Shown here one piece after another: positions 10,977-40,895 of a stretch of 64,000 nt of DNA. Made by a program: the position numbers and the translations under genes. This DNA is from Haladaptatus sp. QDMS2 (GTDB lineage: Archaea > Halobacteriota > Halobacteria > Halobacteriales > Halococcaceae): NCBI RefSeq assembly GCF_029338295.1, contig NZ_CP119791.1, forward strand, positions 62,001 through 126,000, given 5' to 3'. Position 1 is the first letter of the stretch, and each line of letters begins with the position of its first letter. The notes beneath the pieces are model-generated. The model made no database searches, was not told the DNA's origin, and saw nothing but the letters and a program-made list of their open reading frames with translations.

Positions 10977-12074
10977 TTAATTTTCGCCGCCGTGCTCGCG
11001 GTCAGGAAGGCTGATGAGGTTCTCACGGCCGATTCTGAGCTTTTCGATGCGGCCGGCCTCGTCCATCGCAGAGAGCAACTGGGAGACTTTCGCGTTCGAC
11101 CAGCCCGTCTCCTTCACGATGGTCGCTTGCTTCATCCGGCCGCCCTCGGCCCGCAGGAGGCGTTCGACGCGCTCTTCGTCGCTCAACAGGTCGAGGTCCA
11201 CCTCGGGTTCGTCGTCCGGTTCCGTGTCTTCCGGCTCGGGGTCGGTCTCCTGAGTCGTCGGTGTACTCACTGCTGTCGTTTCGCCGCCGTTCGTGCTCGA
11301 CGTGGGCGTGGCCGGCGCGTCGTCTCTGTCGTGGCGGATGAACCACATGTACGCGGCGAGGCCGATGACCACGAACGCGAGGATGCCGAGGCCGAGTAGC
11401 GGCAAGTCGTTTCCTTCTGGGTCAACGCCGGGCGTCTCCGTGTCCGAGGGTCGGTACGTGACTTCGAGGTCTTCGGTGGTGAACGTGGTTGGGCCCTGCC
11501 AGCGCAGCGTCTCGTTGCGGAAGCCAATCGGCGCGCTGCTCACGGCGTAGCCCTCCGGCGGCCGAATAATCAACTGCTGGTCTGCCCGGAGTTGTGGCAG
11601 CCACGTCCCGCTCGACGTGTTGAACGCATCACCGACGCGGTATTCCTCTGCGGACACCTCTGCGAAATTCGTCCAGGTAAAAATGAGCGACAGCGTTCCC
11701 GTCTCGTTCTCGACGCTGTGGCTGTAGGCGACCCCCTTGATGGCCATTTCACGGCCCGTGTGCTCGCTTGCGAGTTTGCTCGCTCGCTTGAACACGTCGA
11801 CGGAGAAGCCCACCTCCGATTCGCCATCCTCGAAGGAGGCGGCGAGTTTCTCGAACGCCTGTGTCTCGTTTTCGGTTTCGAGTGCGAACTGCGTCGAGAC
11901 GGTCCAGCGGGCGTCTCCGTTCGGCTGTAGGTCGACGGTCATGGTCACGCCTTCGTTTGCCGGTTCGTCCTGGAGAGCAGTGGCTGGATGCCCGGGAACG
12001 TCGGCTACCACTCCCGGCACCGCAAAACTGAGGATGACGAGGAGGGCACAGCTTGCGGCAATGCGTGACCGCAT
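10977..12074 (-). CDS. Exported-sensor/membrane-anchored winged-HTH protein
   Basis: 365 residues. Signal peptide (about 1-24), an extracellular beta-rich domain (40-210; DUF7345-like), a membrane helix (224-246), an acidic Thr/Pro-rich linker and a C-terminal winged helix (298-358). The winged helix (RMKQATIVKETGW, VSQLLSAMDEAG, RIGRENLISLP) is closely similar to that of the protein at 29634, at nearly the same residue position. Topology suggests a one-component regulator sensing something outside the cell and binding DNA inside. Transcribed divergently from the secreted protein at 12231, a plausible target. Function is inferred. Confidence 0.78.
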   Translation of the reverse strand: MRSRIAASCALLVILSFAVPGVVADVPGHPATALQDEPANEGVTMTVDLQPNGDARWTVSTQFALETENETQAFEKLAASFEDGESEVGFSVDVFKRASKLASEHTGREMAIKGVAYSHSVENETGTLSLIFTWTNFAEVSAEEYRVGDAFNTSSGTWLPQLRADQQLIIRPPEGYAVSSAPIGFRNETLRWQGPTTFTTEDLEVTYRPSDTETPGVDPEGNDLPLLGLGILAFVVIGLAAYMWFIRHDRDDAPATPTSSTNGGETTAVSTPTTQETDPEPEDTEPDDEPEVDLDLLSDEERVERLLRAEGGRMKQATIVKETGWSNAKVSQLLSAMDEAGRIEKLRIGRENLISLPDREHGGEN

Positions 12075-29633: not shown

Positions 29634-30800
29634 ATGCCTCACTCCAACGCGTTCAAATACCTCCCCCTGTTGGCGGCGCTACTCGTTGCCATCGCGTTTT
29701 TTCCGATGGTGGCAGTCGCAGACCAACAGATTCCGAAATCCGTCGCGCTCTCCGGTAGCGACGGGCCACCTGGCACGACTGACGCCGCGCTCGAATTCGC
29801 CGTCCCGACGCCGATGGACGCCGACGTTGACGGCGACGGCGTAAACCAGGCGACTGAGACTCGCCTCGGAACGGACTCCACCGCGAGTGACACCGATGGC
29901 GACGGACTCGAAGATGGCGCCGAACGACGCCACGGTACCGACCCGACGCAAGCGGACACGGACGGTGATGGCGTCGACGACGGAACCGAGATTCACCAGT
30001 CGCTCGACGCGCTGGCAGCCGATACGGACGGCGATGGGCTCACCGACCGCGAGGAACTGGACGGACCGACGGACCCGACGGCCGTCGATACCGACGGTGA
30101 CGGCCTCAGCGACGGCGAAGAGCGAAAACAGGGAACGGTTGCGACCCAACCCGACACCGACGGCGATGGGCTGACTGACAGTGCCGAGGTGAAACGTACC
30201 GGGTCGAATCCGCTGGTCACCGACTCGGACGGTGACTTCCTGAGCGACCAGAGCGAACTGAGCCTCGGCGGCGACCCGACCAATTGGCTGTCCCCGATTA
30301 CGGTTCCCGGCACCTTCGCTGGCTTCCTCTTCGGCGTGGTGCTTTCGGTCGGCATCTCGAATCGCCGGCTCCGGCCCGGTCGGCTCCTCGACGGAGCGGT
30401 TGCCCTCCACTCGCGAATCGAGCGCGGAGACGACGCCGCACAGGCCACAACGCACAGCGCCGAACCGGTTACCGAGCCTTCGGCGGACGAACCGTCCACC
30501 GACAAGCCAGCGGACACCATCTACTCCGACGAAGCCTTCATCGAACACCTCCTCTCCGCGAGCGACGGCCGACTAAACCAGGCGGCTATCGTCTCGCAAA
30601 CCGACTGGTCCAAGTCGAAGGTTAGCCGCCTGTTATCGGCGATGGCAGACGACGGGGACGTGGTCAAAATCCAACTCGGCCGCGAGAACCTCATCTGTCT
30701 CCCGGGCGCGGAACCGGCCATCGTGAGATCCACTGGCCGAGACGACCGACGCGATTCGGCCCCGCCCACCTCGTTTGGCAACGCGGCTAACTCGGAGTAG
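29634..30800 (+). CDS. Calcium-repeat (TSP3-like) extracellular domain, membrane helix, cytosolic winged HTH
   Basis: 388 residues. Signal peptide/anchor (1-29); seven Asp-rich repeats of the form DTDGDGLxD...E spaced 22 residues apart (63-210), a thrombospondin type-3-like calcium-binding array; membrane helix (222-242); acidic linker; winged helix at about 300-357 (RLNQAAIVSQTDW, VSRLLSAMADDG, QLGRENLICLP). The winged helix is a near twin of the one at 10977-12074. The layout suggests a membrane regulator reading external divalent cations and controlling nearby envelope genes, of which it is the first on this strand. Function inferred from layout only. Confidence 0.78.
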   Translation: MPHSNAFKYLPLLAALLVAIAFFPMVAVADQQIPKSVALSGSDGPPGTTDAALEFAVPTPMDADVDGDGVNQATETRLGTDSTASDTDGDGLEDGAERRHGTDPTQADTDGDGVDDGTEIHQSLDALAADTDGDGLTDREELDGPTDPTAVDTDGDGLSDGEERKQGTVATQPDTDGDGLTDSAEVKRTGSNPLVTDSDGDFLSDQSELSLGGDPTNWLSPITVPGTFAGFLFGVVLSVGISNRRLRPGRLLDGAVALHSRIERGDDAAQATTHSAEPVTEPSADEPSTDKPADTIYSDEAFIEHLLSASDGRLNQAAIVSQTDWSKSKVSRLLSAMADDGDVVKIQLGRENLICLPGAEPAIVRSTGRDDRRDSAPPTSFGNAANSE

Positions 30801-30951
30801 GTCCGTCTCCGCTCCGGACGTGAGTTCGTGAGTGGCAACAATGTTTCACGCACCCACAGCTCACATCGGGAGGTGAGCGAGCGGGATAGCCGGCGGAAAT
30901 TCCACGTTATCGCGGGACGCAACGGATGAAACAATCTCCCATTTATATAGC

Positions 30952-30957
30952 AGCACT
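30952..30957 (+). promoter_or_regulatory. TATA box TTTATA
   Basis: Lies 27-32 bases before the ATG at 30984 in a CATTTATATAGC context, the clearest promoter in this stretch; indicates a leaderless or near-leaderless transcript for the sulfotransferase-like gene. Confidence 0.55.
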
Positions 30958-30983
30958 CGCCATCTCATCGCATAACCTCCTCC

Positions 30984-32411
30984 ATGCGCTCAAAGCGAAC
31001 CTTCCGAATGGTATTCTCCGTCCTGCTCGCAGTGTCGGTTCTCACTGTTGGATACGGAGCCGCAACGGCGTCGAACAACGGGTCGTTCGAAAACCACCTC
31101 AACGAGTCTGGCGCACCCGATATGGATGCGCAGATTGCCCCCGAGTCAGACGGCATCACCGTCGTCGCAGCGGACTCGAATCAGTGGGAGGGCAATCCCA
31201 CCGAGGGCCACCGGGCAACTTCCGAACTGGTCGCGTTCAACCCCGACGGTACGACGCTGTACTTCAACGGTACCCACGACCGATACTGGGACGTAGACCC
31301 GGTTCCCGGCACCGAAGCGACAGTCGAGTACGCCTTCTCCCACCACTACGAAAACGGTGGCTGTCCGACCGAGTGGGACGCAGCGTCCTACGGCGTCGAC
31401 CAGGAGACGTGGGACCACTACGAGCGCGTCCACGGAACCGAGGCGTGCACGCTGAACGGTGTCGAGCGGGTGAACCTCAAAACGGGCGAGGTGACCACCG
31501 TCTGGACGCAGTTCACGCCGGGCAAGGAGGCGTCGCGCTACCACGACGTCGACCGTCTCGACGAGAATCGACTCGTCGTCGCCGACATCTACCTAGACCG
31601 CGTGTTCGTTGTGAACACCGAGACCAACGAGACGGAGTGGACGTGGAACGCCACCGAGGTCCACGAGACGAGCTCCGGCGGTCCGTATCCGAAAGACTGG
31701 ACCCACATCAACGATGTCGAAATCCTCGACGACGGCCGCATCATGGTCGACATGCGCAATCACGACGAAATCATCTTCCTGAACGACGCGGGCGCAATCG
31801 AGGACATGACGCTCGGTGCCGACGACAACCACGACATCCTCTACGAGCAACACAATCCCGACTACATCCCGCCGAATCGGGGCGGCCCTGCGGTAATCGT
31901 CGCCGACTCTGAGAACAACCGCGTCGTCGAGTATCAGCGCGAGAACGGCGAGTGGAAGCAGACGTGGCTGTGGCAGGACGCGCGGATGCAGTGGCCCCGC
32001 GACGCAGACCGCCTCCCGAACGGCAACACGCTGATTACTGACTCGAACGCGGACCGCGTCTTCGAAGTGGACCAGCGCGGGAACATCGTCTGGAGCGTAA
32101 ACATCGCCTTCCCGTACGAGGCAGAACGCCTCGGAACCGGTGACGAGAGCGCGGGTGGGGAGAGCGCCAGCGCGCTCGGCCTCGAATCGCACTCCTCGTC
32201 GATGACCGGCAAGGCACTCATCGGCCTCAAGAGCCTGATTCCCGGCAAGTACCTCAACGGACTCATCTACATCACGCCGGTGTGGATGGGCTTCGTCGAA
32301 ATCCTTGGCCTCCTCGTCGGCGTGCTCGCTGGCCTCGCGTGGGCGGGCGCGGAGGTCCGTTGGGCGATCCGTGACCGTCGAACTGAGCGCGGCCACCTTT
32401 CCTCCGAATAA
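30984..32411 (+). CDS. Aryl-sulfotransferase-like (ASST) membrane-anchored beta-propeller
   Basis: 475 residues. N-terminal signal peptide (FSVLLAVSVLTVGYGAATA), then a propeller with repeats such as LVVADIYLDRVFVVN, VIVADSENNRVVEYQ and TLITDSNADRVFEVD, and the segment DWTHINDVEIL with a His typical of arylsulfotransferase-family propellers. A C-terminal helix near 425-455 anchors it. The family transfers sulfate between phenolic esters or is uncharacterised; substrate unknown. In the run of envelope genes it may decorate an exported glycan or lipid. Confidence 0.75.
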   Translation: MRSKRTFRMVFSVLLAVSVLTVGYGAATASNNGSFENHLNESGAPDMDAQIAPESDGITVVAADSNQWEGNPTEGHRATSELVAFNPDGTTLYFNGTHDRYWDVDPVPGTEATVEYAFSHHYENGGCPTEWDAASYGVDQETWDHYERVHGTEACTLNGVERVNLKTGEVTTVWTQFTPGKEASRYHDVDRLDENRLVVADIYLDRVFVVNTETNETEWTWNATEVHETSSGGPYPKDWTHINDVEILDDGRIMVDMRNHDEIIFLNDAGAIEDMTLGADDNHDILYEQHNPDYIPPNRGGPAVIVADSENNRVVEYQRENGEWKQTWLWQDARMQWPRDADRLPNGNTLITDSNADRVFEVDQRGNIVWSVNIAFPYEAERLGTGDESAGGESASALGLESHSSSMTGKALIGLKSLIPGKYLNGLIYITPVWMGFVEILGLLVGVLAGLAWAGAEVRWAIRDRRTERGHLSSE

Positions 32412-32801
32412 CGGTCTCGTTTTCACCAACCGTTCACCTTTCCACAGCCTCGAACCTTCCTCCGCCATGGTCGGTGTGCGTTGGCTCTCATCCGCTCGTG
32501 ACTGGCTGGGCGGAGACCGGCGGTTCACCCGCGATTCGTGGGTGATTTGCAGACATTACGTCCGGAGTAATGTCCTATTTCATGCACTGGTTCGCTCCTG
32601 ACTCCCGCTACTTCGATAATTCGGGCGTTTCTCGCATCGTTCACGTCTCGAATATTGTCTCTCTCGCTGATTCGTTTCGGCCGAACCGTCCGTTGCAACT
32701 CATGCAACAATCGTACCGGGTAATCTGCATACCCACTGTTCCTCCTCGTACGGTCCCTGCTCCAGTGGCAGACCGGCCCCCTGAAGACTCTCTCCAAACC
32801 A
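32412..32801. other. 390-base intergenic region
   Basis: Between two co-directional genes. No supported ORF (the short frames lack codon bias). Contains a small inverted repeat GTTGCA/TGCAAC at 32692-32708. No convincing TATA box about 27 bases before the ATG at 32802, so the glycosyltransferase transcript may have a longer leader. Confidence 0.4.
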
Positions 32802-34700
32802 ATGGCCACCGACAAACGGACGTTCGAGATCGCACGCCCAGACTCCCTCGACGCGGACGGATACGTCTGGCTCCTACCAGCCGTACTCGCGGGGAGTCTC
32901 GTCCACCTCATCTACCTCGGAACCCACCCCTACCCGGCGTTCGGTGCTGGCCTGTTCTTGCTGATGGCAGAACAGGTGAGCCACCACGGCTACGCGCTGC
33001 CGTCAGCCATCCCTCACTACGCGAGTTCGATTCCGTTCGCGTATCCCCCGCTGATGTTCTACGTCGTCGCGGCGCTGCGAGACCTAACCGGGGCGGATCC
33101 GCTGTTCATCAGCCGCGTTCTCCCCGGCCTCGTCACGACCACCGCGCTCGTGCCCTGTTACCTGTTCGTCAGAGAACTCCTCGACTCCGGGCGCAAGGCC
33201 GGTCTCGCGACGTTCGTCGTCGCCGTCTCGCCGCCCATTCTCCAGTGGCACATCTCGGCCGGCGGTATCGTCCGGGCACCGGCGTTCTTGTTCCTCGTTT
33301 CCGGGCTGTACACCGGTCTGATGCTGTTCAAAACCCGTCGCCCGAAGTGGCTCGTGGCTTCGCTCGGCCTCTTTTCGCTCACGATTCTGACCCACCCCAC
33401 CTACACGATATTCTTCGTTCTGAGCTATCTCTGTCTGTTCGCTGGATTCTCCCGGACCATCTCCGGGCTTCGGGACGGCGCCATCGTCGGCGTCGGCGGC
33501 CTCGTCCTCACCGTCCCGTGGTGGGGACAGGTACTAGCGACCCACGGCACGGCGGTGTTCTCGGGCGCCGCAGGTACCCACGGCGGCCTCGCCCAAAAAG
33601 TCCCGGCTGTGCTGAGTGACGTCGTCTCGACGCTGGTACCGGGCGGGCCCGCAATCTCGCGTGGCACCCACTCGGCGGAACTGGTCAGCATCCAGCCGTG
33701 GTTCGGCGACCTGAGCGTCGTTGGATTCCTGCAACTCGTCGGCGGCGTCGTCCTCTTCGTCGGCGCGGCCGCGTCACTCGTCATCGCCGACGAGGACACA
33801 CAGTCGAAACTCGCCGCCTTCGTCTCCGCGCAAGTCGCCGCCACTCGCGGCGAATTTGCCAACCTTCCCGTCTTCGGTGACGGGTCCCATCCACGGGTGA
33901 CCGCGTTCCTCCTCGGATGGCTTTTCCTGACCGTCACCGTCGTCTCGCAACACCGGTTTGCCTATCTGATTCACTCGATACTCGTTGCGATTCTCGTCTA
34001 CGAGTACCTCCTTCCGACGCTCGACGACATCGCACCGCGACCCACGCGACAGCAGGTCGAATTCGGCGTCCTGCTCGTCCTCGCCGTCTCCTGTCTGAGC
34101 GTTGGCGGCCTCTACGCCGCGAGCCAACTCGATAGCCACGGAGGGAGTGCGTCGCTCCCCGAGTTTATCGACGACAGCGACGCGGCGGCGATGTCATGGG
34201 CGGCGGAGAACACGGACCCGTCGGCCCGATTCCTCGTGATGGGTGACGCAGCAGAGTGGTTCCCCCAATCCACCGACCGCGCCATCACGACCGGGCCGTG
34301 GGGCATCGAGTGGAAGGGTTCTGGCGCGTACAGCACGCAACTCGCCCAGTTCATCGACGTCTCGACGTGCGCCGACGCGGCGTGCGTGAGCCAGCAGGTC
34401 GAACGGGCGGGTGTCCACCCCGACTACGTCTACGTGCCGACTGACGGCTACACCGTCCGCGGCATGGAAACCGACCCAGCCCCCGGTCTGTACGCCTCGC
34501 TCGTCGCTGCTGAAGACTACACGCTGGTCTTCGAGAACGACGGCGTGGCGATTTTCCGGGTGACAGACGCCGCCAGCGCCGATTCGCTGGCCGCAACGCA
34601 GTCGCCACCGTTGCTCGGTCCCAGCGGTGGCGCTGCAATCGACCACCACGGGACCGAGAGAGAGACAGCAACTGTCAGAGCACCTTATGACCGCAACTAA
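32802..34700 (+). CDS. GT-C-type (PMT/ArnT-like) membrane glycosyltransferase
   Basis: 632 residues. About ten membrane helices in the first 430 residues, with an acidic-loop region after the first helix and a soluble extracytoplasmic C-terminal domain (from about 440: DDSDAAAMSWAAENT) as in dolichol-phosphate-sugar-dependent transferases. Donor and acceptor unknown. Overlaps the sulfatase-fold gene by 14 bases, so the two are an operon. Confidence 0.75.
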   Translation: MATDKRTFEIARPDSLDADGYVWLLPAVLAGSLVHLIYLGTHPYPAFGAGLFLLMAEQVSHHGYALPSAIPHYASSIPFAYPPLMFYVVAALRDLTGADPLFISRVLPGLVTTTALVPCYLFVRELLDSGRKAGLATFVVAVSPPILQWHISAGGIVRAPAFLFLVSGLYTGLMLFKTRRPKWLVASLGLFSLTILTHPTYTIFFVLSYLCLFAGFSRTISGLRDGAIVGVGGLVLTVPWWGQVLATHGTAVFSGAAGTHGGLAQKVPAVLSDVVSTLVPGGPAISRGTHSAELVSIQPWFGDLSVVGFLQLVGGVVLFVGAAASLVIADEDTQSKLAAFVSAQVAATRGEFANLPVFGDGSHPRVTAFLLGWLFLTVTVVSQHRFAYLIHSILVAILVYEYLLPTLDDIAPRPTRQQVEFGVLLVLAVSCLSVGGLYAASQLDSHGGSASLPEFIDDSDAAAMSWAAENTDPSARFLVMGDAAEWFPQSTDRAITTGPWGIEWKGSGAYSTQLAQFIDVSTCADAACVSQQVERAGVHPDYVYVPTDGYTVRGMETDPAPGLYASLVAAEDYTLVFENDGVAIFRVTDAASADSLAATQSPPLLGPSGGAAIDHHGTERETATVRAPYDRN

Positions 34701-36168
34701 GCACAAAAACATCGTCATCGTCGTGATGGACACCGTCCGGAAGGACGCCCTGTCCGTGTACAACGCCAACCGTTCGACCTCACCGAACCTCGAACAGTTC
34801 GCAGCAAACGCCGTCGTCTTCGACCAGGCCGTCTCGCCTGCGCCGTGGACGCTTCCGGTCCACGCCTCGCTGTTTACGGGCGAGTATCCGAGTCAGCACG
34901 GGGCGAGTCAGGAAACGCCGTACCTCGCGGATTCGATAACGCTCGCGGACACGCTCTCGAACGAGGGCTACTCGACCGCGTGTTTCACGTCGAACGCGTG
35001 GATTACGCCGTACACCGGTCTCACCAGCGGGTTCGCCGTCCAGGACAACTTCTTCGAAGTGCTCCCGGGCGACTTCATTTCGGGACCGCTCGCGAAGTGC
35101 TGGCAGGTCTTCAACGACAACTCGACGCTGCGCTCTGTCACCAATCGCCTCGTCGAACTCGGAAACGACATTCACGAACACCTCGCGCAGGGCGATGGCG
35201 CGGACTCGAAGACGCCGGCCGTCGTGGACAAAGCCATCGACTTCATCGACCGGACGGAAGGCCCCTCCTTTACGTTCGTGAACCTGATGGACGCCCACCT
35301 GCCGTACTACCCGCCCGAGGAGTACCGGGAACTGTACGCCCCTGACGTCGACCCGACCGAGGTGTGTCAGAACTCGAAGGAGTACAACTCCGGAGCGCGA
35401 GACATCGACGACGACGAGTGGGAGGCGATTCGCGGCCTCTACGCCGCGGAAATCCGCCACCTCGACGCCGAACTCGGTCGCCTGCTCGATTGGCTTCGCG
35501 AGAACGACGAGGAGGACACGCTCGTCGCTGTCTGCGCGGACCACGGCGAACTTCACGGCGAACACGGCCTCTACGGCCACGAGTTCGGAATTTACGACCC
35601 GCTCGTGAACGTCCCGCTCATGGTCTCCCACCCCGACCTCGAGGCCGGGGAACGTGACGACCAGGTCGAACTGCTCGACCTCTACCACACGGTACTCGAC
35701 CACGCCGGCGTCTCGCCGCGCGAACCGGCGGTTCCGCTCGACCGTCGCCGGTCGCTTCTCTCGGCCGACTACCGCGATTTCGCCGGTGGCGAGTACGCCT
35801 TCATCGAGTACGACCAGCCGGTCATCGAACTGTCGCAACTCGAAACCAAGGCGTCGAACGTGGGCATCACGCTCGACGAGAACTCTCGGTACTACTCGCG
35901 GATGCGCGGGGTGCGTCGCGCTGACGCGAAGTTCATACAGAACGAAGGGCTTCCGGACGAACTGTACTTCATCGACGACGACCCCGAAGAACTGCACGAC
36001 CGTGCGGGCCGAGACCGCACGGCGGAACGCGAACTCGAGTCGGCGCTCTCCGATTTCGAAGCGACGACCGGGTCGAACTGGACGGCCCAGACCGATTCGG
36101 ACGGGTCGATAGACGAGATGAGCGTCGAGGCGAAATCTCGCCTTCGGGAACTCGGCTACCTCGAATAA
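34687..36168 (+). CDS. Sulfatase/alkaline-phosphatase-fold enzyme with Thr at the nucleophile position
   Basis: 493 residues from MTATKHKNIV (34687). Metal ligands are visible: Asp in VVMDTVRKD and the pair in CADHGELHGEHG. The nucleophile motif reads WTLPVHASLFTG, with Thr55 where sulfatases have the Cys/Ser that becomes formylglycine. Thr is the nucleophile in phosphoethanolamine and lipoteichoic-acid-type transferases. So annotation as a sulfatase is uncertain; it may move a phospho-group. No signal peptide or helix is evident, so it would act inside the cell unless anchored by a partner. Confidence 0.8.
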   Translation: MTATKHKNIVIVVMDTVRKDALSVYNANRSTSPNLEQFAANAVVFDQAVSPAPWTLPVHASLFTGEYPSQHGASQETPYLADSITLADTLSNEGYSTACFTSNAWITPYTGLTSGFAVQDNFFEVLPGDFISGPLAKCWQVFNDNSTLRSVTNRLVELGNDIHEHLAQGDGADSKTPAVVDKAIDFIDRTEGPSFTFVNLMDAHLPYYPPEEYRELYAPDVDPTEVCQNSKEYNSGARDIDDDEWEAIRGLYAAEIRHLDAELGRLLDWLRENDEEDTLVAVCADHGELHGEHGLYGHEFGIYDPLVNVPLMVSHPDLEAGERDDQVELLDLYHTVLDHAGVSPREPAVPLDRRRSLLSADYRDFAGGEYAFIEYDQPVIELSQLETKASNVGITLDENSRYYSRMRGVRRADAKFIQNEGLPDELYFIDDDPEELHDRAGRDRTAERELESALSDFEATTGSNWTAQTDSDGSIDEMSVEAKSRLRELGYLE

Positions 36169-36170
36169 TC

Positions 36171-37235
36171 GTGCCCTCACCACCAGACACACAGGCGGCC
36201 GGCGGCGACCCCACAGCGCAACCGCCGTCGACGCTCGCGTTCGACCGGAAGACCATTCTCAAAATCGGGATCGGTTTTCTCGTCGCCGTCGCGGCGCTCT
36301 ACCTCGTCGGGAAGGCGTCGGGGCTCCGGGCCGTCGAAGAGTCGCTGATTTACGGCGACCACCAGTGGCTCGTCGTGGCTTGTCTCTCGACGTTCCTCGG
36401 ACTCGTCGCCTGGAGCAAGGTCTGGCAAATCGTTCTCTCCATCGTCGGCATCGAAGCGAGTCTGCCCCGCGTCACCTCGACGTTCTTCGCGGGCACGTTC
36501 GCGAACTACATCACCCCGCTCGGACAGGTGGGCGGCGAGCCGCTTATCGCCTACGTCATCTCGACAGAGATGGATACGAACTACGAGAACAGTCTGACGA
36601 GCGTGGTCACCGCAGACCTGTTGAACCTCGTCCCATTTTTCGTCTTCTCGGTGGTCGGCATGGGCGTCCTCCTCGTCAGGGCGGAACTCCCGCCGGTCGT
36701 CCAGACGTCGGCCTACGGGCTCGTTGCGCTCGTCGTGGCCGTGCCGGTGACGAGTTACATCGGGTGGAATCACCGGACCGGGGTCAAGCGGGCGGTTGCA
36801 GCCGTCGTACGCCCCGTCGCACGCTTCACAGACCGCATGCAGGTGGACAGCCTTCTCGCCCGCGTCGACCGCTTTTACGAGACGCTCGACGTCATCGCGA
36901 CGGCACCGCGCCGTCTCGCCTACGCCCTCGTCTTCTCGTTCGTCGGCTGGGTGTTCTTCGTCCTGCCGCTCTACTTCTCCGGGCTGGTCCTCGGCGTCTC
37001 GCTCGACCTGTGGCTCGTCCTCTTTATCGTCCCGGCGAGCACACTCGCCGGATTCGTTCCGACCCCCGGGGGCCTCGGCGGCGTGGAAGTCGCACTCGTT
37101 GCGCTCCTCGTCGGCATCGTCGCCCTCCCCGCGAGCCAAGCGTTCGCGCTCGCAGTCCTCTATCGCGTCGCGAGTTACTGGTTTACCCTCGCCGTCGCCA
37201 TCGTCCCGACCTTCTACGCAATCGCGAGAGCATAA
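36171..37235 (+). CDS. Lysylphosphatidylglycerol-synthase-type membrane protein (AglD/flippase-like family)
   Basis: 354 residues, GTG start two bases after the previous stop. Eight or so membrane helices with the family signatures TPLGQVGGEPLIAY and PTPGGLGGVE. Haloarchaeal relatives such as AglD act in protein N-glycosylation at the membrane, and others are proposed lipid-linked sugar flippases. Position directly after GT-C and sulfatase-fold genes supports a glycolipid or glycan role. Confidence 0.82.
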   Translation: MPSPPDTQAAGGDPTAQPPSTLAFDRKTILKIGIGFLVAVAALYLVGKASGLRAVEESLIYGDHQWLVVACLSTFLGLVAWSKVWQIVLSIVGIEASLPRVTSTFFAGTFANYITPLGQVGGEPLIAYVISTEMDTNYENSLTSVVTADLLNLVPFFVFSVVGMGVLLVRAELPPVVQTSAYGLVALVVAVPVTSYIGWNHRTGVKRAVAAVVRPVARFTDRMQVDSLLARVDRFYETLDVIATAPRRLAYALVFSFVGWVFFVLPLYFSGLVLGVSLDLWLVLFIVPASTLAGFVPTPGGLGGVEVALVALLVGIVALPASQAFALAVLYRVASYWFTLAVAIVPTFYAIARA

Positions 37236-37308
37236 GTTATGACACGTTCACTCCACACATACCGTTCGACCGTGACCATCCCGCCGTCGGCAATTCGGGT
37301 GACTGCCC

Positions 37309-37830
37309 GTGTTTGAGCTTTCGCTCATTCCGCCAGAACTGGGGACGCTCGGCCTCGAAATCATCCAGAAGTACGGGATGGTCGCGCTGTTCGTCCTGTT
37401 CATCCTCGAAGGCGCGATGTTGCTGTTTATCGCGCCGAGCGAGAGCCTCGTCCCCGTCGCCATCGCCTCGATGTCCACGACCGAGGAGTACGCACTCGTC
37501 ATCGTTCTCTCGGTGGCTGGAGCGACCATCGGACAGTACGCCTTGTTCACGCTCGCAAAGCGTCGCGGAAAGGAGTATCTCGTCGAAAACCGGTGGTTCC
37601 GGGTCGACGAAGCGCGCATCGACACGTACGAAAACTGGTTCGGGCGCTGGGGCCCGGGCATCGTCCTGCTCAGCAACACGCTCCCGTTCGTGCGCGGCCT
37701 GTTCACCGTCCCCGCGGGTGTCGCGGAACTGAGCGACCGAGAGTTCGTGGCCTATTCGGCGCTCGGAACGCTGTGTTTCGAGACCATCCTCGCGTTCGCC
37801 ACCCTCGGCGTACTCAGCCACTTCGGCTAA
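37309..37830 (+). CDS. DedA/VTT-domain membrane protein
   Basis: 173 residues, GTG start. Contains the DedA-type stretch APSESLVPVAIASM, then ENWFGRWGPGIVLLSNTLPFVRGLFTVPAG, with the conserved Arg and Pro of the family. DedA proteins are linked to undecaprenyl-phosphate or phospholipid scrambling and to membrane homeostasis in bacteria; the archaeal role is open. Same strand as the envelope genes around it. Confidence 0.82.
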   Translation: MFELSLIPPELGTLGLEIIQKYGMVALFVLFILEGAMLLFIAPSESLVPVAIASMSTTEEYALVIVLSVAGATIGQYALFTLAKRRGKEYLVENRWFRVDEARIDTYENWFGRWGPGIVLLSNTLPFVRGLFTVPAGVAELSDREFVAYSALGTLCFETILAFATLGVLSHFG

Positions 37831-37848
37831 TCTGGCTCCATCGCATCC

Positions 37849-38301
37849 ATGCTGGACCACACGCTCTATCTCGTCTTCGCCATCGCGACTCACGGACTCG
37901 TCGGCTACGTGCTGGTTCGCACCCTGACCACCGCCCCGCCCGCAGCGGGTTTTCTGTTCGCTGTCGCTCCTGACGTGGACCTATTTTTTCACCACCTCTG
38001 GACGTTTCCGCTCGTCCATCGTGGCCTCCTCCACACTCCTGTATTCCTCGGAATACTGGCCGTCTCGTTCCTGCTGGTCGGCGCGTCCAGACGGCTGCTC
38101 TTCGCACTCTGTGTCGCCTTCGGGTCCCATCTCGTCATCGACTCGTTCACCAATGCGGGCATCCTGTGGCTGTACCCATTGACCGTCGAACACTACGCCT
38201 ACGACGTCGATATTCACAGCGTTGCTGGCAACCTCGCCGTCTGGACCGTCTCGCTCGTCGTCCTGGTACTGGATGGTCACGTCCTCTCACGTCGAAGCTA
38301 A
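37849..38301 (+). CDS. YdjM-type membrane metal-dependent hydrolase
   Basis: 150 residues with four hydrophobic helices and the metal-binding pattern of the family: DVDLFFHH, HRGLLHTP and SHLVIDSF. Proteins of this group are membrane-bound putative phosphohydrolases of unknown substrate. 18 bases after the DedA gene. Confidence 0.78.
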   Translation: MLDHTLYLVFAIATHGLVGYVLVRTLTTAPPAAGFLFAVAPDVDLFFHHLWTFPLVHRGLLHTPVFLGILAVSFLLVGASRRLLFALCVAFGSHLVIDSFTNAGILWLYPLTVEHYAYDVDIHSVAGNLAVWTVSLVVLVLDGHVLSRRS

Positions 38302-38446
38302 TTCTCGCCGTAAACCCGGTTCAAACTGCCGAAACCTCGCTCGCTCACACTGCGGAGACGTGCCGGTTCGAATCGATAATGGTCGTTCGAAAAAAATTAA
38401 TCGAAACCTTAGTAAATATTCATACAGTCGGCCCATACACCTACCT

Positions 38447-39907
38447 ATGTCAACGGAACACGGGGGCCAGTCGACTTCGGGGCCGAACCGCCGGTTCGTC
38501 TTCGTGGCTGCTGGACTCGCGGCACTCAACGGACTACTGTTCGGCTTCGACACAGGGGTCATCTCGGGGGCGTTCCTCTACATCAAAGACGCGTTCGTCA
38601 TGTCCTCGTTCGTAGAGAGCGTGGTCGTGAGCGGCGCACTCGTCGGCGCGGTCATCGGTGCGGCCGTCGGTGGTCGCCTCGCAGACCGCATCGGTCGCCG
38701 GTTGCTCATCATCGTCGGGGCGGTGGTGTTCTTCCTCGGGTCGTTCATCATGGCCGTCGCGCCGACCGTCGAAATCCTCATCGCCGGGCGCATCATCGAC
38801 GGCATCGCGATTGGCTTCGCGTCGATGGTCGGCCCGCTCTACATCGCCGAAATCTCCCCGCCGAAGATTCGCGGGTCGCTCGTCTCGCTCAACCAACTCG
38901 CCATCACGACCGGGATTCTCGTCTCGTACTTCGTGAACTACGCCTTCACCGACGGCCCGATTCTCGCGCTCGCCCAGGACGTCCTCGGTGCGGCGGGCTG
39001 GCGCTGGATGCTCGGGGCCGGGATGGTCCCCGCTGTGGTCCTCGGCGTCGCCATGATGTGGATGCCGGAGAGTCCGCGGTGGCTCGTAGAGGAGGGCCGC
39101 GAACGCGAAGCGAAATCCGTCCTTGCGCGGACCCGCGGCGACGAAAACGTCGAGGCGGAACTCGAACAGATTCAGGAGACGGCGCGAAAACAGGCCAGCA
39201 CCGGCCTCTCGGACCTCGTGGAGCCGTGGATTCGCCCGGCGCTCGTCGTCGGCATCGGTCTCGCCGCTTTCCAGCAGGTGACCGGCATCAACACGGTCAT
39301 CTACTACGCGCCGACCATCCTCGAATCGACCGGCTTCGACAGTTCCGCGTCCATCCTCGCGACGGTCGGCATCGGCGTCGTGAACGTCGTGATGACCATC
39401 GTGGCGGTCCTGCTGATGGACCGCGCGGGTCGTCGGCCGCTCCTCCTCGTGGGCCTCGGCGGGATGACGCTCACGCTCGCCGGCCTCGGCCTCGCCTTCT
39501 TCTTGCCGGGGCTGTCCGGCGTCATCGGCTGGGTCGCCGTCGCCAGCCTGATGCTGTACGTAGCCTTCTTCGCCATCGGTCTCGGGCCGGTGTTCTGGCT
39601 GCTCATCTCCGAAATATACCCGCTTCGCGTGCGCGGGACGGCGATGGGCGTCGTCACCGTGGTCAACTGGGCGGCGAACCTGCTCGTCGCGCTCACGTTC
39701 CTCCAGCTCATCGACGTCGCCGGTCGTCCCGGCACGTTCTGGCTGTACGCCGCACTGAGCATCGCCGCCCTCGTGTTCACCTACTATCTCGTTCCCGAGA
39801 CGAAGGGGCGTTCGCTCGAAGAAATCGAGGCCGATCTTCGCGGAAACGCCTTCGGTGACGCCTCCACGGGCGGCGCGGCGAGCGGGTCCGCGTCGCGAGA
39901 CGACTGA
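38447..39907 (+). CDS. Sugar porter, MFS family
   Basis: 486 residues from MSTEHGGQ (38447); an A/T-rich box (AAATATT, 38414-38420) sits about 30 bases upstream. Twelve helices and the sugar-porter signatures GRLADRIGRR, PESPRWL, QQVTGINTVIYYAPTI and VPETKGRSLEEIE. Proton-coupled uptake of a hexose or similar sugar is likely. Last gene of the co-directional envelope run. Confidence 0.9.
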   Translation: MSTEHGGQSTSGPNRRFVFVAAGLAALNGLLFGFDTGVISGAFLYIKDAFVMSSFVESVVVSGALVGAVIGAAVGGRLADRIGRRLLIIVGAVVFFLGSFIMAVAPTVEILIAGRIIDGIAIGFASMVGPLYIAEISPPKIRGSLVSLNQLAITTGILVSYFVNYAFTDGPILALAQDVLGAAGWRWMLGAGMVPAVVLGVAMMWMPESPRWLVEEGREREAKSVLARTRGDENVEAELEQIQETARKQASTGLSDLVEPWIRPALVVGIGLAAFQQVTGINTVIYYAPTILESTGFDSSASILATVGIGVVNVVMTIVAVLLMDRAGRRPLLLVGLGGMTLTLAGLGLAFFLPGLSGVIGWVAVASLMLYVAFFAIGLGPVFWLLISEIYPLRVRGTAMGVVTVVNWAANLLVALTFLQLIDVAGRPGTFWLYAALSIAALVFTYYLVPETKGRSLEEIEADLRGNAFGDASTGGAASGSASRDD

Positions 39908-40343: not shown

Positions 40344-40895
40344 TTGGCGGAGTTCCACACTCAGATTAAATCTGGCCTTACAGCCTCCCTTGCGGGGACT
40401 GAAGCCGATTGTGGAGATTTCACATTTGCACCCTATCTCGCAGCTTGGTTAGCGGACCATCCACGTTCTGACAACCCTGAAGCCTACGTGTTCGTTGGCG
40501 ACCCAGACCACTTCCAGACGAGTCTTGACGAACCCTTGTGTCAAGGAACGATACGTCGCATGCTCCAAACAACTGCTGAGCATGCAGACGTAGAAAAGCC
40601 GGTGAATCCACACAACTTCCGTCACTACTGGACGACGATAATGAAACAGGAATACGGACTCAATGACGAGGAACTCAAATTCCTCCTCGAGCATCAACGG
40701 TCGGGAAATGGAATGAACGAGGTCTACAATCACTCCGTGGATTCAAAGCTGCGAAGGAATATCGCCGAAAAACGCGACGGAACTATTTCATCGCAGCCAA
40801 AGCCCTTGACTCCAGCCCACTGTGCTGAATGCAATGAACAACTAGCCGACCACTGGGTTTTCTGTCCCTACTGTGGGACAGCATACGGTCCATAA
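40344..40895 (+). CDS. Truncated tyrosine recombinase (C-terminal catalytic half) with zinc ribbon
   Basis: 183 residues from a TTG; a stop codon (40305-40307) blocks the frame just upstream, and family members are about twice this size. The second half of the active site is present: HNFRHYWTT (HxxR), LLEHQRSG (the His/Trp box region) and the Tyr in MNEVYNH. The first catalytic Arg and the core-binding domain are missing. A C-terminal CAEC ... CPYC zinc ribbon is typical of haloarchaeal integrases. Probably a remnant of an integrated element; lower G+C than neighbours. Confidence 0.75.
   Translation: MAEFHTQIKSGLTASLAGTEADCGDFTFAPYLAAWLADHPRSDNPEAYVFVGDPDHFQTSLDEPLCQGTIRRMLQTTAEHADVEKPVNPHNFRHYWTTIMKQEYGLNDEELKFLLEHQRSGNGMNEVYNHSVDSKLRRNIAEKRDGTISSQPKPLTPAHCAECNEQLADHWVFCPYCGTAYGP

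Follow-up and report, generated by a model that had tools for sequence, protein, structure and literature searches.

Haloarchaeal taxonomy uses sulfated diglycosyl archaeols, which are major lipids of the membrane, as key markers, and no gene assigned to their sulfation was found in the literature searched. The question raised here is what a run of envelope-related genes in Haladaptatus sp. QDMS2 (genome label G000, 99.96% complete) might build, and whether a sulfatase-fold gene in its midst, termed SULF below, could take part in such sulfation. The window, i.e., the whole stretch of DNA analysed, comprises 64,000 nt of contig NZ_CP119791.1, and the block proper extends co-directionally from a regulator gene to a YdjM-family gene (29634-38301). 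The association of these genes is real and recurrent but flexible, and it probably serves the tailoring of glycolipids or lipid-linked glycans by sulfation, sulfuryl transfer being the likeliest chemistry of the block. The narrower reading, an envelope-tailoring operon for membrane glycolipids or lipid-linked sugars that works on both membrane faces, is held tentatively, at somewhat less than an even chance.

Gene order and recurrence of the block

Eight intact open reading frames, all on the + strand, occupy positions 29634-39907. Pfam and NCBIfam profile searches confirmed the families that had been named from the letters alone (hereafter the sequence-only reading), the GT-C glycosyltransferase being recognised by its fold:

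29634..30800 (+), membrane one-component regulator (TSP3/DUF7343); TSP3_bac 1.8e-28, DUF7343 1.9e-23
30984..32411 (+), ASST-like beta-propeller; Pfam Arylsulfotran_2 and Arylsulfotrans, both over cut-off
32412..32801 (+), intergenic region of 390 bp, candidate promoter/regulatory region of the GT-C operon; partial conservation against G001
32802..34700 (+), GT-C membrane glycosyltransferase; AlphaFold model, PDB fold matches
34687..36168 (+), SULF, sulfatase-fold (alkaline phosphatase superfamily) enzyme; PF00884 2.9e-40
36171..37235 (+), LPG_synthase_TM/flippase-like membrane protein; PF03706 4.5e-41, TIGR00374 2.4e-35
37309..37830 (+), DedA-family (VTT) membrane protein; PF09335 2.5e-12
37849..38301 (+), YdjM-family small membrane protein; PF04307 1.3e-12
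38447..39907 (+), sugar porter of the major facilitator superfamily, a neighbour judged to lie outside the block; missing from the G001 block

The GT-C, SULF, flippase, DedA and YdjM genes are packed in an operon-like manner: the likeliest SULF start, ATG 34687 rather than GTG 34627, gives an overlap of 14 bp with the GT-C stop, followed by gaps of 2 bp (SULF-flippase), 73 bp (flippase-DedA) and 18 bp (DedA-YdjM). Between the ASST-like and GT-C genes lie 390 bp, which makes separate transcripts possible. This gap holds a 26-bp run GTTGCAACTCATGCAACAATCGTACC that is kept in the sibling species (alignment with G001), and it may serve the GT-C operon as promoter or regulatory region. The single co-directional cluster of the sequence-only reading holds as to the intact frames and the tight spacing from GT-C to YdjM; it may be divided at the 390-bp gap, and it does not include the sugar porter as a member.

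In order to see whether these genes recur together, their coordinates were compared with random placement at a distance of 10 kb in 41 genomes; as the expectation assumes random placement and independent genomes, genus counts are the safer measure. SULF lay near a DedA gene in 11 genomes (0.18 expected; six genera), near an AglD-type flippase gene in seven (0.28 expected; five genera) and near an ASST-like gene in eight (0.63 expected), while the ASST-like gene was paired with DedA in nine genomes (0.64 expected) and with GT-C in six (0.16 expected; two genera), the latter pair including G005, G007, G009 and G011. Pair adjacency exceeds chance in several genera. The flippase gene also adjoins SULF in G022, Haloarcula pellucida and Halomicroarcula rubra, starting 1 bp after SULF in the last two, and YdjM is found in the f7 clusters described below as well as next to an ASST-like gene in G024. 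The TSP3/DUF7343 regulator was not found in other clusters and is conserved at the genus level only.

Within the genus, every gene of the block, regulator through YdjM, is syntenic in the sibling G001, with argS on one flank and TYW1 directly on the other; a 55% ortholog of the regulator holds the same position there and a 71% ortholog of GT-C adjoins SULF. No SULF ortholog was found in the third genus member, G002, while 25/41 genomes carry one (54-84% identity, one clade). The sugar porter (true start at about ATG 38447, TTG 38222 being discarded) is missing from the G001 block, where YdjM adjoins TYW1, and it has a 145-bp upstream gap of its own after YdjM; for these reasons it was placed outside the block and rejected as a pathway member. 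Between the porter and TYW1, where the GC content drops to 0.549 over 2 kb, lies an integrase/recombinase C-terminal-like fragment (window 40344-40895, + strand). Since neither is seen between YdjM and TYW1 in G001, porter and fragment are likely an insertion in the window species.

Enzymes, predicted topology and glycolipid linkage

SULF has the fold and metal-ligand pattern (N-terminal Asp, DHG) of the alkaline phosphatase superfamily, with D15, T55 (counted from ATG 34687), D285 and H286 invariant. A profile alignment places Thr where sulfatases carry the nucleophile Cys that is converted to formylglycine (Cys-Gly-Ser-Ser-Arg in 4UPL), with His replacing Arg, and the motif W-T-L-P-x-H (W-T-x-P-x-H) occurs in all orthologs examined; several aglB-linked paralogs likewise have Thr or Ser at the nucleophile position. 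Owing to this replacement SULF is not a true sulfatase, and its assignment as a formylglycine (type I, S1) enzyme was rejected (Thr in place of the Cys/Ser of C/S-x-P-x-R); of the earlier label "sulfatase-fold enzyme", the fold stands and the sulfatase nucleophile does not. With neither transmembrane segment nor signal predicted, the protein is soluble and probably cytoplasmic. Its closest functional precedent, likened by fold only, is VNG1056C (Agl30) and VNG1057C (Agl31), sulfatase-fold sulfotransferases of Halobacterium salinarum N-glycosylation that sulfated the glycan of Haloferax volcanii when introduced there (PMC11980604). SULF is a candidate glycolipid or lipid-linked sugar sulfotransferase.

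The ASST-like protein exceeded the cut-offs of both Pfam ASST models (30.9 vs. 27 bits and 24.9 vs. 24.2 bits), and its f7 homolog reached 36.0 bits against a cut-off of 24.2. Five residues invariant in 15 homologs (H187, H241-x-N243, R258 and H290) match in kind and order the active site reported for EcAST (His252, His356, Asn358, Arg374 and His436; PMC13426309); an HMM (hidden Markov model) alignment with Cpz4 superposes the His-x-Asn and the Arg, the other two histidines (H187, H290) being matched by order only. The AlphaFold model (pLDDT 81.5) retrieved Cpz4 (9kf6/9kf4) at ranks 7 and 15 with TM 0.47-0.49, among many other propellers. One transmembrane segment is predicted at each end, and the positive N-terminus before the first together with the positive tail after the last predicts that the propeller faces outside. 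The protein is thus a candidate sulfuryl transferase independent of PAPS (3'-phosphoadenosine-5'-phosphosulfate). Literature searches for haloarchaeal arylsulfotransferases returned nothing. In genus g2, ASST-like paralogs (L137, L138, L119) adjoin a sulfatase-fold protein with GPATPYAFP replacing PAPWTLPVH.

The flippase-like protein matched PF03706 only (residues 34-342 of 354), which corresponds to the C-terminal half of AglD. As the GT2 domain is absent, AglD proper (a dolichyl-phosphate-mannose, or Dol-P-mannose, synthase) was rejected, so that only the flippase half of the earlier "AglD-type" label remains; its family makes the protein a candidate glycolipid flippase. For GT-C, a PDB sequence search gave no significant relative, while the significant fold matches of its model are all GT-C enzymes, STT3/AglB first, and also PglB, DPY19, AftA, ArnT, ALG9, PMT and OST; the model suggests that it probably transfers a sugar or oligosaccharide from a lipid-phosphate donor on the outer face. 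Its Glu57 is invariant in six close homologs and Asp in a paralog. Elsewhere in the window genome (L136, G000:C1:288000-304000), and likewise in G001 and G002, a GT-C paralog and a second, short STT3-like protein are separated by no more than about 3 kb. The DedA protein, whose VTT domain is over the PF09335 cut-off, is a candidate polyprenyl-phosphate or lipid translocase; it is not claimed as UptA, because the UptA equivalog models (1.5e-14) stay far below their cut-offs. The regulator combines a signal/transmembrane segment, extracellular TSP3 repeats (Ca-binding type), a further transmembrane segment and a cytoplasmic DUF7343 winged helix, and is likely a local regulator. A second membrane protein of the window (10977-12074, - strand) likewise has a signal, an extracellular region, a transmembrane segment and a DUF7343-like C-terminal winged helix.

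A link to glycolipids comes from other genomes. In the two f7 genomes and in f14, two GT4 genes and a short alkaline phosphatase (AlkP)-like gene share one direction and the SULF ortholog extends their run, with a divergent flippase gene and DedA and ASST-like genes next to it. In NCBIfam, one GT4 matched the IagA/BgsA glycolipid-anchor glucosyltransferase (7e-81) and the processive diacylglycerol glucosyltransferase (6e-58), the other the monoglucosyldiacylglycerol (MGlcDAG) synthase (1e-26), and the flippase the glucosaminyl-phosphatidylglycerol (GlcN-PG) flippase (3e-19); all of these scores are under the equivalog cut-offs, so the assignments hold at the family level only. A PDB sequence search with this type of GT4 returned no significant relative. 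In the f5 genomes this core (GT4-GT4-short AlkP-flippase) is present with SULF absent from it. The short AlkP-like protein (about 286 aa, DYCLVLDACRYDVF near its start) is a conserved member of the core, placed between the two GT4s and the flippase (L244, L245, L036-L038), and in genus g2 ASST-like paralogs lie about 7 kb from a core diglycosyl-archaeol-type GT4 pair (L241, L242). A scan of named genomes also found SULF in Halomicroarcula rubra, which has S-DGD-1 (a sulfated diglycosyl diether) among its major lipids (PMC8600319), and in Haloferax larsenii, where S-DGD is the dominant glycolipid and phosphatidylglycerosulfate (PGS) is absent (PMC10704169). The latter species, with SULF and S-DGD yet no PGS, disfavours SULF as a PGS synthase. 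Haloarcula argentinensis is reported to have no S-DGD (PMC10704169).

Proposed scheme and competing explanations

For the sulfur chemistry, the lipid acceptor, the direction of flipping and the regulation, we infer the following scheme. Inside the cell, the soluble SULF would move a charged group, most likely sulfuryl, onto the head-group sugar of a glycosyl-archaeol or of a dolichol-linked carrier, and the AglD-type protein would flip the product. Outside, GT-C would add or transfer a sugar supplied by a lipid-phosphate, and the propeller, anchored in the membrane, would shift sulfuryl between surface compounds by a histidine ping-pong. DedA would bring the used lipid carrier back, and the regulator (TSP3-DUF7343) would couple expression to the outer surface. 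The proposal that the genes build, flip and decorate a surface compound is borne out in part, by the predicted sides (ASST-like out, SULF in), the GT-C fold, the recurrent flippase and DedA, and the GT4 genes elsewhere; its sulfated form remains the conditional part.

A more elaborate version is doubtful, namely a trans-membrane sulfation relay in which SULF would sulfate a lipid-linked sugar or glycolipid inside, the AglD-type protein would flip it, and the ASST-like protein would use the sulfo-lipid as donor for S-layer glycans or surface sugars, so that outside sulfation would proceed where PAPS is not available. Caprazamycin sulfation is a two-step process, and the relay, if true, would be its archaeal counterpart with a membrane lipid as the sulfate shuttle.

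Several observations weigh against the tailoring operon. The full block is known from only two species, the window species and one sibling, and SULF mostly stands alone, at a single locus flanked by a NifU-like gene and DNA polymerase D that is also seen in Haloferax larsenii and Halegenticoccus soli. As SULF is widely conserved and mostly solitary, the window block looks like a derived assembly around it; of the neighbourhood conservation that the sequence-only reading had proposed as a check, the sub-pairs recur across families and the complete arrangement does not. Moreover, the window genome has its diglycosyl-type GT4 pair at another site (G000:C1:1739855-1742056), the window flippase is unmatched by the glycolipid-flippase model, and the carriage of SULF fits the occurrence of sulfated diglycosyl archaeol in two named species, a match without a negative control. 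In GT-C, the canonical acidic site of the first outer loop reads FGAG, and with the usual acidic residue missing from the start of this loop its activity is uncertain.

The supply of sulfate is a further difficulty. In the window genome neither a PF01747 ATP sulfurylase nor a CysD over cut-off is present, and its P-loop matches to APS (adenosine-5'-phosphosulfate) kinase are weak, none of them convincing. True APS kinases were found in 3/41 genomes, beside conventional sulfotransferase-like genes and in one case with an ATP sulfurylase-like gene (the sulfotransferases and the sulfurylase were recognised by eye), and the PF01507 search was uninformative on sulfate activation because paralogs occur in nearly all genomes searched. 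The missing activation genes weigh against classical PAPS sulfation. The objection is softened by Haloferax volcanii, which had no PF01747 match in that search either, yet supports Agl30/31 activity and makes the sulfated glycolipid S-DGD (PMC10704169), so this group may obtain its sulfuryl donor by a non-canonical route. One aglB contig (L230, G027:C31:8000-27900), on which an APS kinase and an ATP sulfurylase-like gene are found together with AlkP-fold proteins and a gene resembling conventional sulfotransferases, is a candidate compact sulfated N-glycan cluster.

Among the competing explanations, a Dol-P-sugar dependent module for capping proteins or N-glycans, similar to AglD/AglR/AglS, is unlikely but deserves serious attention. 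GT-C would cap S-layer glycans, the flippase-like protein carry the Dol-P-sugar, DedA recycle Dol-P, and SULF and the ASST-like protein modify the glycan, in keeping with a GT-C model nearest STT3/AglB and DPY19, with the capping logic established in Haloferax, and with SULF paralogs lying near aglB in eight genomes (0.42 expected). However, aglB is within 10 kb of none of the five block families in any genome tested (in the window genome it lies at C1:1201420, about 1.1 Mb away), and the flippase lacks the GT2 domain of AglD. SULF orthologs, linked to glycolipid GT4s and near aglB in 0/25 genomes, have a clade of their own, distinct from the aglB-linked paralogs (quick tree, support 82), so SULF was rejected as their ortholog. 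Slightly less probable is that SULF acts as a phosphotransferase or phosphodiesterase (LtaS/EptA/OpgB-like) that would attach or remove phospho-glycerol or other phospho groups on a glycolipid, e.g., glycocardiolipin, with no sulfur involved and another role for the ASST-like protein. The Thr at the nucleophile position, weak EptA-type matches, the linkage to GT4s of the lipoteichoic acid (LTA) glycolipid-anchor type and the lack of recognisable PAPS synthesis in the window genome would agree with it, but SULF is soluble and has no signal, unlike the LtaS/EptA relatives, which are anchored in the membrane and work on its outer side; the best matches to SULF are sulfatases, haloarchaeal sulfatase-fold proteins have been shown to be sulfotransferases (PMC11980604), and the ASST catalytic residues are intact.

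Two simpler explanations appear far less probable. That these are unrelated membrane genes, co-directional by chance, would suit a full block confined to two species and the occurrence of ASST-GT-C, SULF-flippase and DedA-ASST as separate pairs, but it conflicts with pair frequencies far over random placement in several genera, with varied order and strand. The least probable, by a little, is scavenging, in which ASST and sulfatase would strip sulfate from external sulfated sugars and the porter import the sugars. The family names alone and the porter downstream suggest it; the porter, however, is not conserved with the block, SULF lacks both a signal and the sulfatase nucleophile, and the block has no catabolic gene, its recurrent partners being glycosyltransferases and flippases.

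Comparison with known systems

As the sequence-only reading had supposed, no pathway with this gene set was found in the literature searched; the enzyme families are known, while no description of their combination, or of the proposed role of SULF in glycolipid sulfation, was found there. SULF, present in 25/41 genomes, carried also by the genetically tractable Haloferax, and in some families linked to glycolipid-type glycosyltransferases and a flippase, is a candidate gene for haloarchaeal glycolipid sulfation. The block also provides an archaeal example of ASST-like proteins in which the active-site set is intact and which are tied to genes for glycans.

The window ASST-like protein shares with EcAST and Cpz4 the propeller fold, the Pfam ASST match and the His/His-x-Asn/Arg/His set, but identity is about 13%, it has two transmembrane anchors, and no counterpart of the reported N-terminal beta-sandwich of EcAST was seen in it. 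Cpz4 sulfates a sugar hydroxyl in caprazamycin biosynthesis, and most bacterial ASSTs have no known natural substrate (PMC13426309). Agl30/Agl31 resemble SULF in their haloarchaeal alkaline-phosphatase/sulfatase fold, they act on lipid-linked sugars, and Agl31 is soluble as SULF is; unlike SULF orthologs, they sit in an aglB cluster. The Dol-P-mannose capping by AglD-AglR-AglS in Haloferax volcanii has the same logic of flipping and outer-face transfer, whereas the block lacks the GT2 domain and the aglB linkage and has another flippase candidate. Finally, bacterial glycolipid and LTA-anchor pathways (Mgs/Dgs, IagA/BgsA, GlcN-PG synthase/flippase) combine a GT4 pair with an LPG_TM flippase, as is found with SULF in f7/f14 and without it in f5, whereas the window block has GT-C for the GT4 pair, plus the ASST-like, DedA and YdjM genes.

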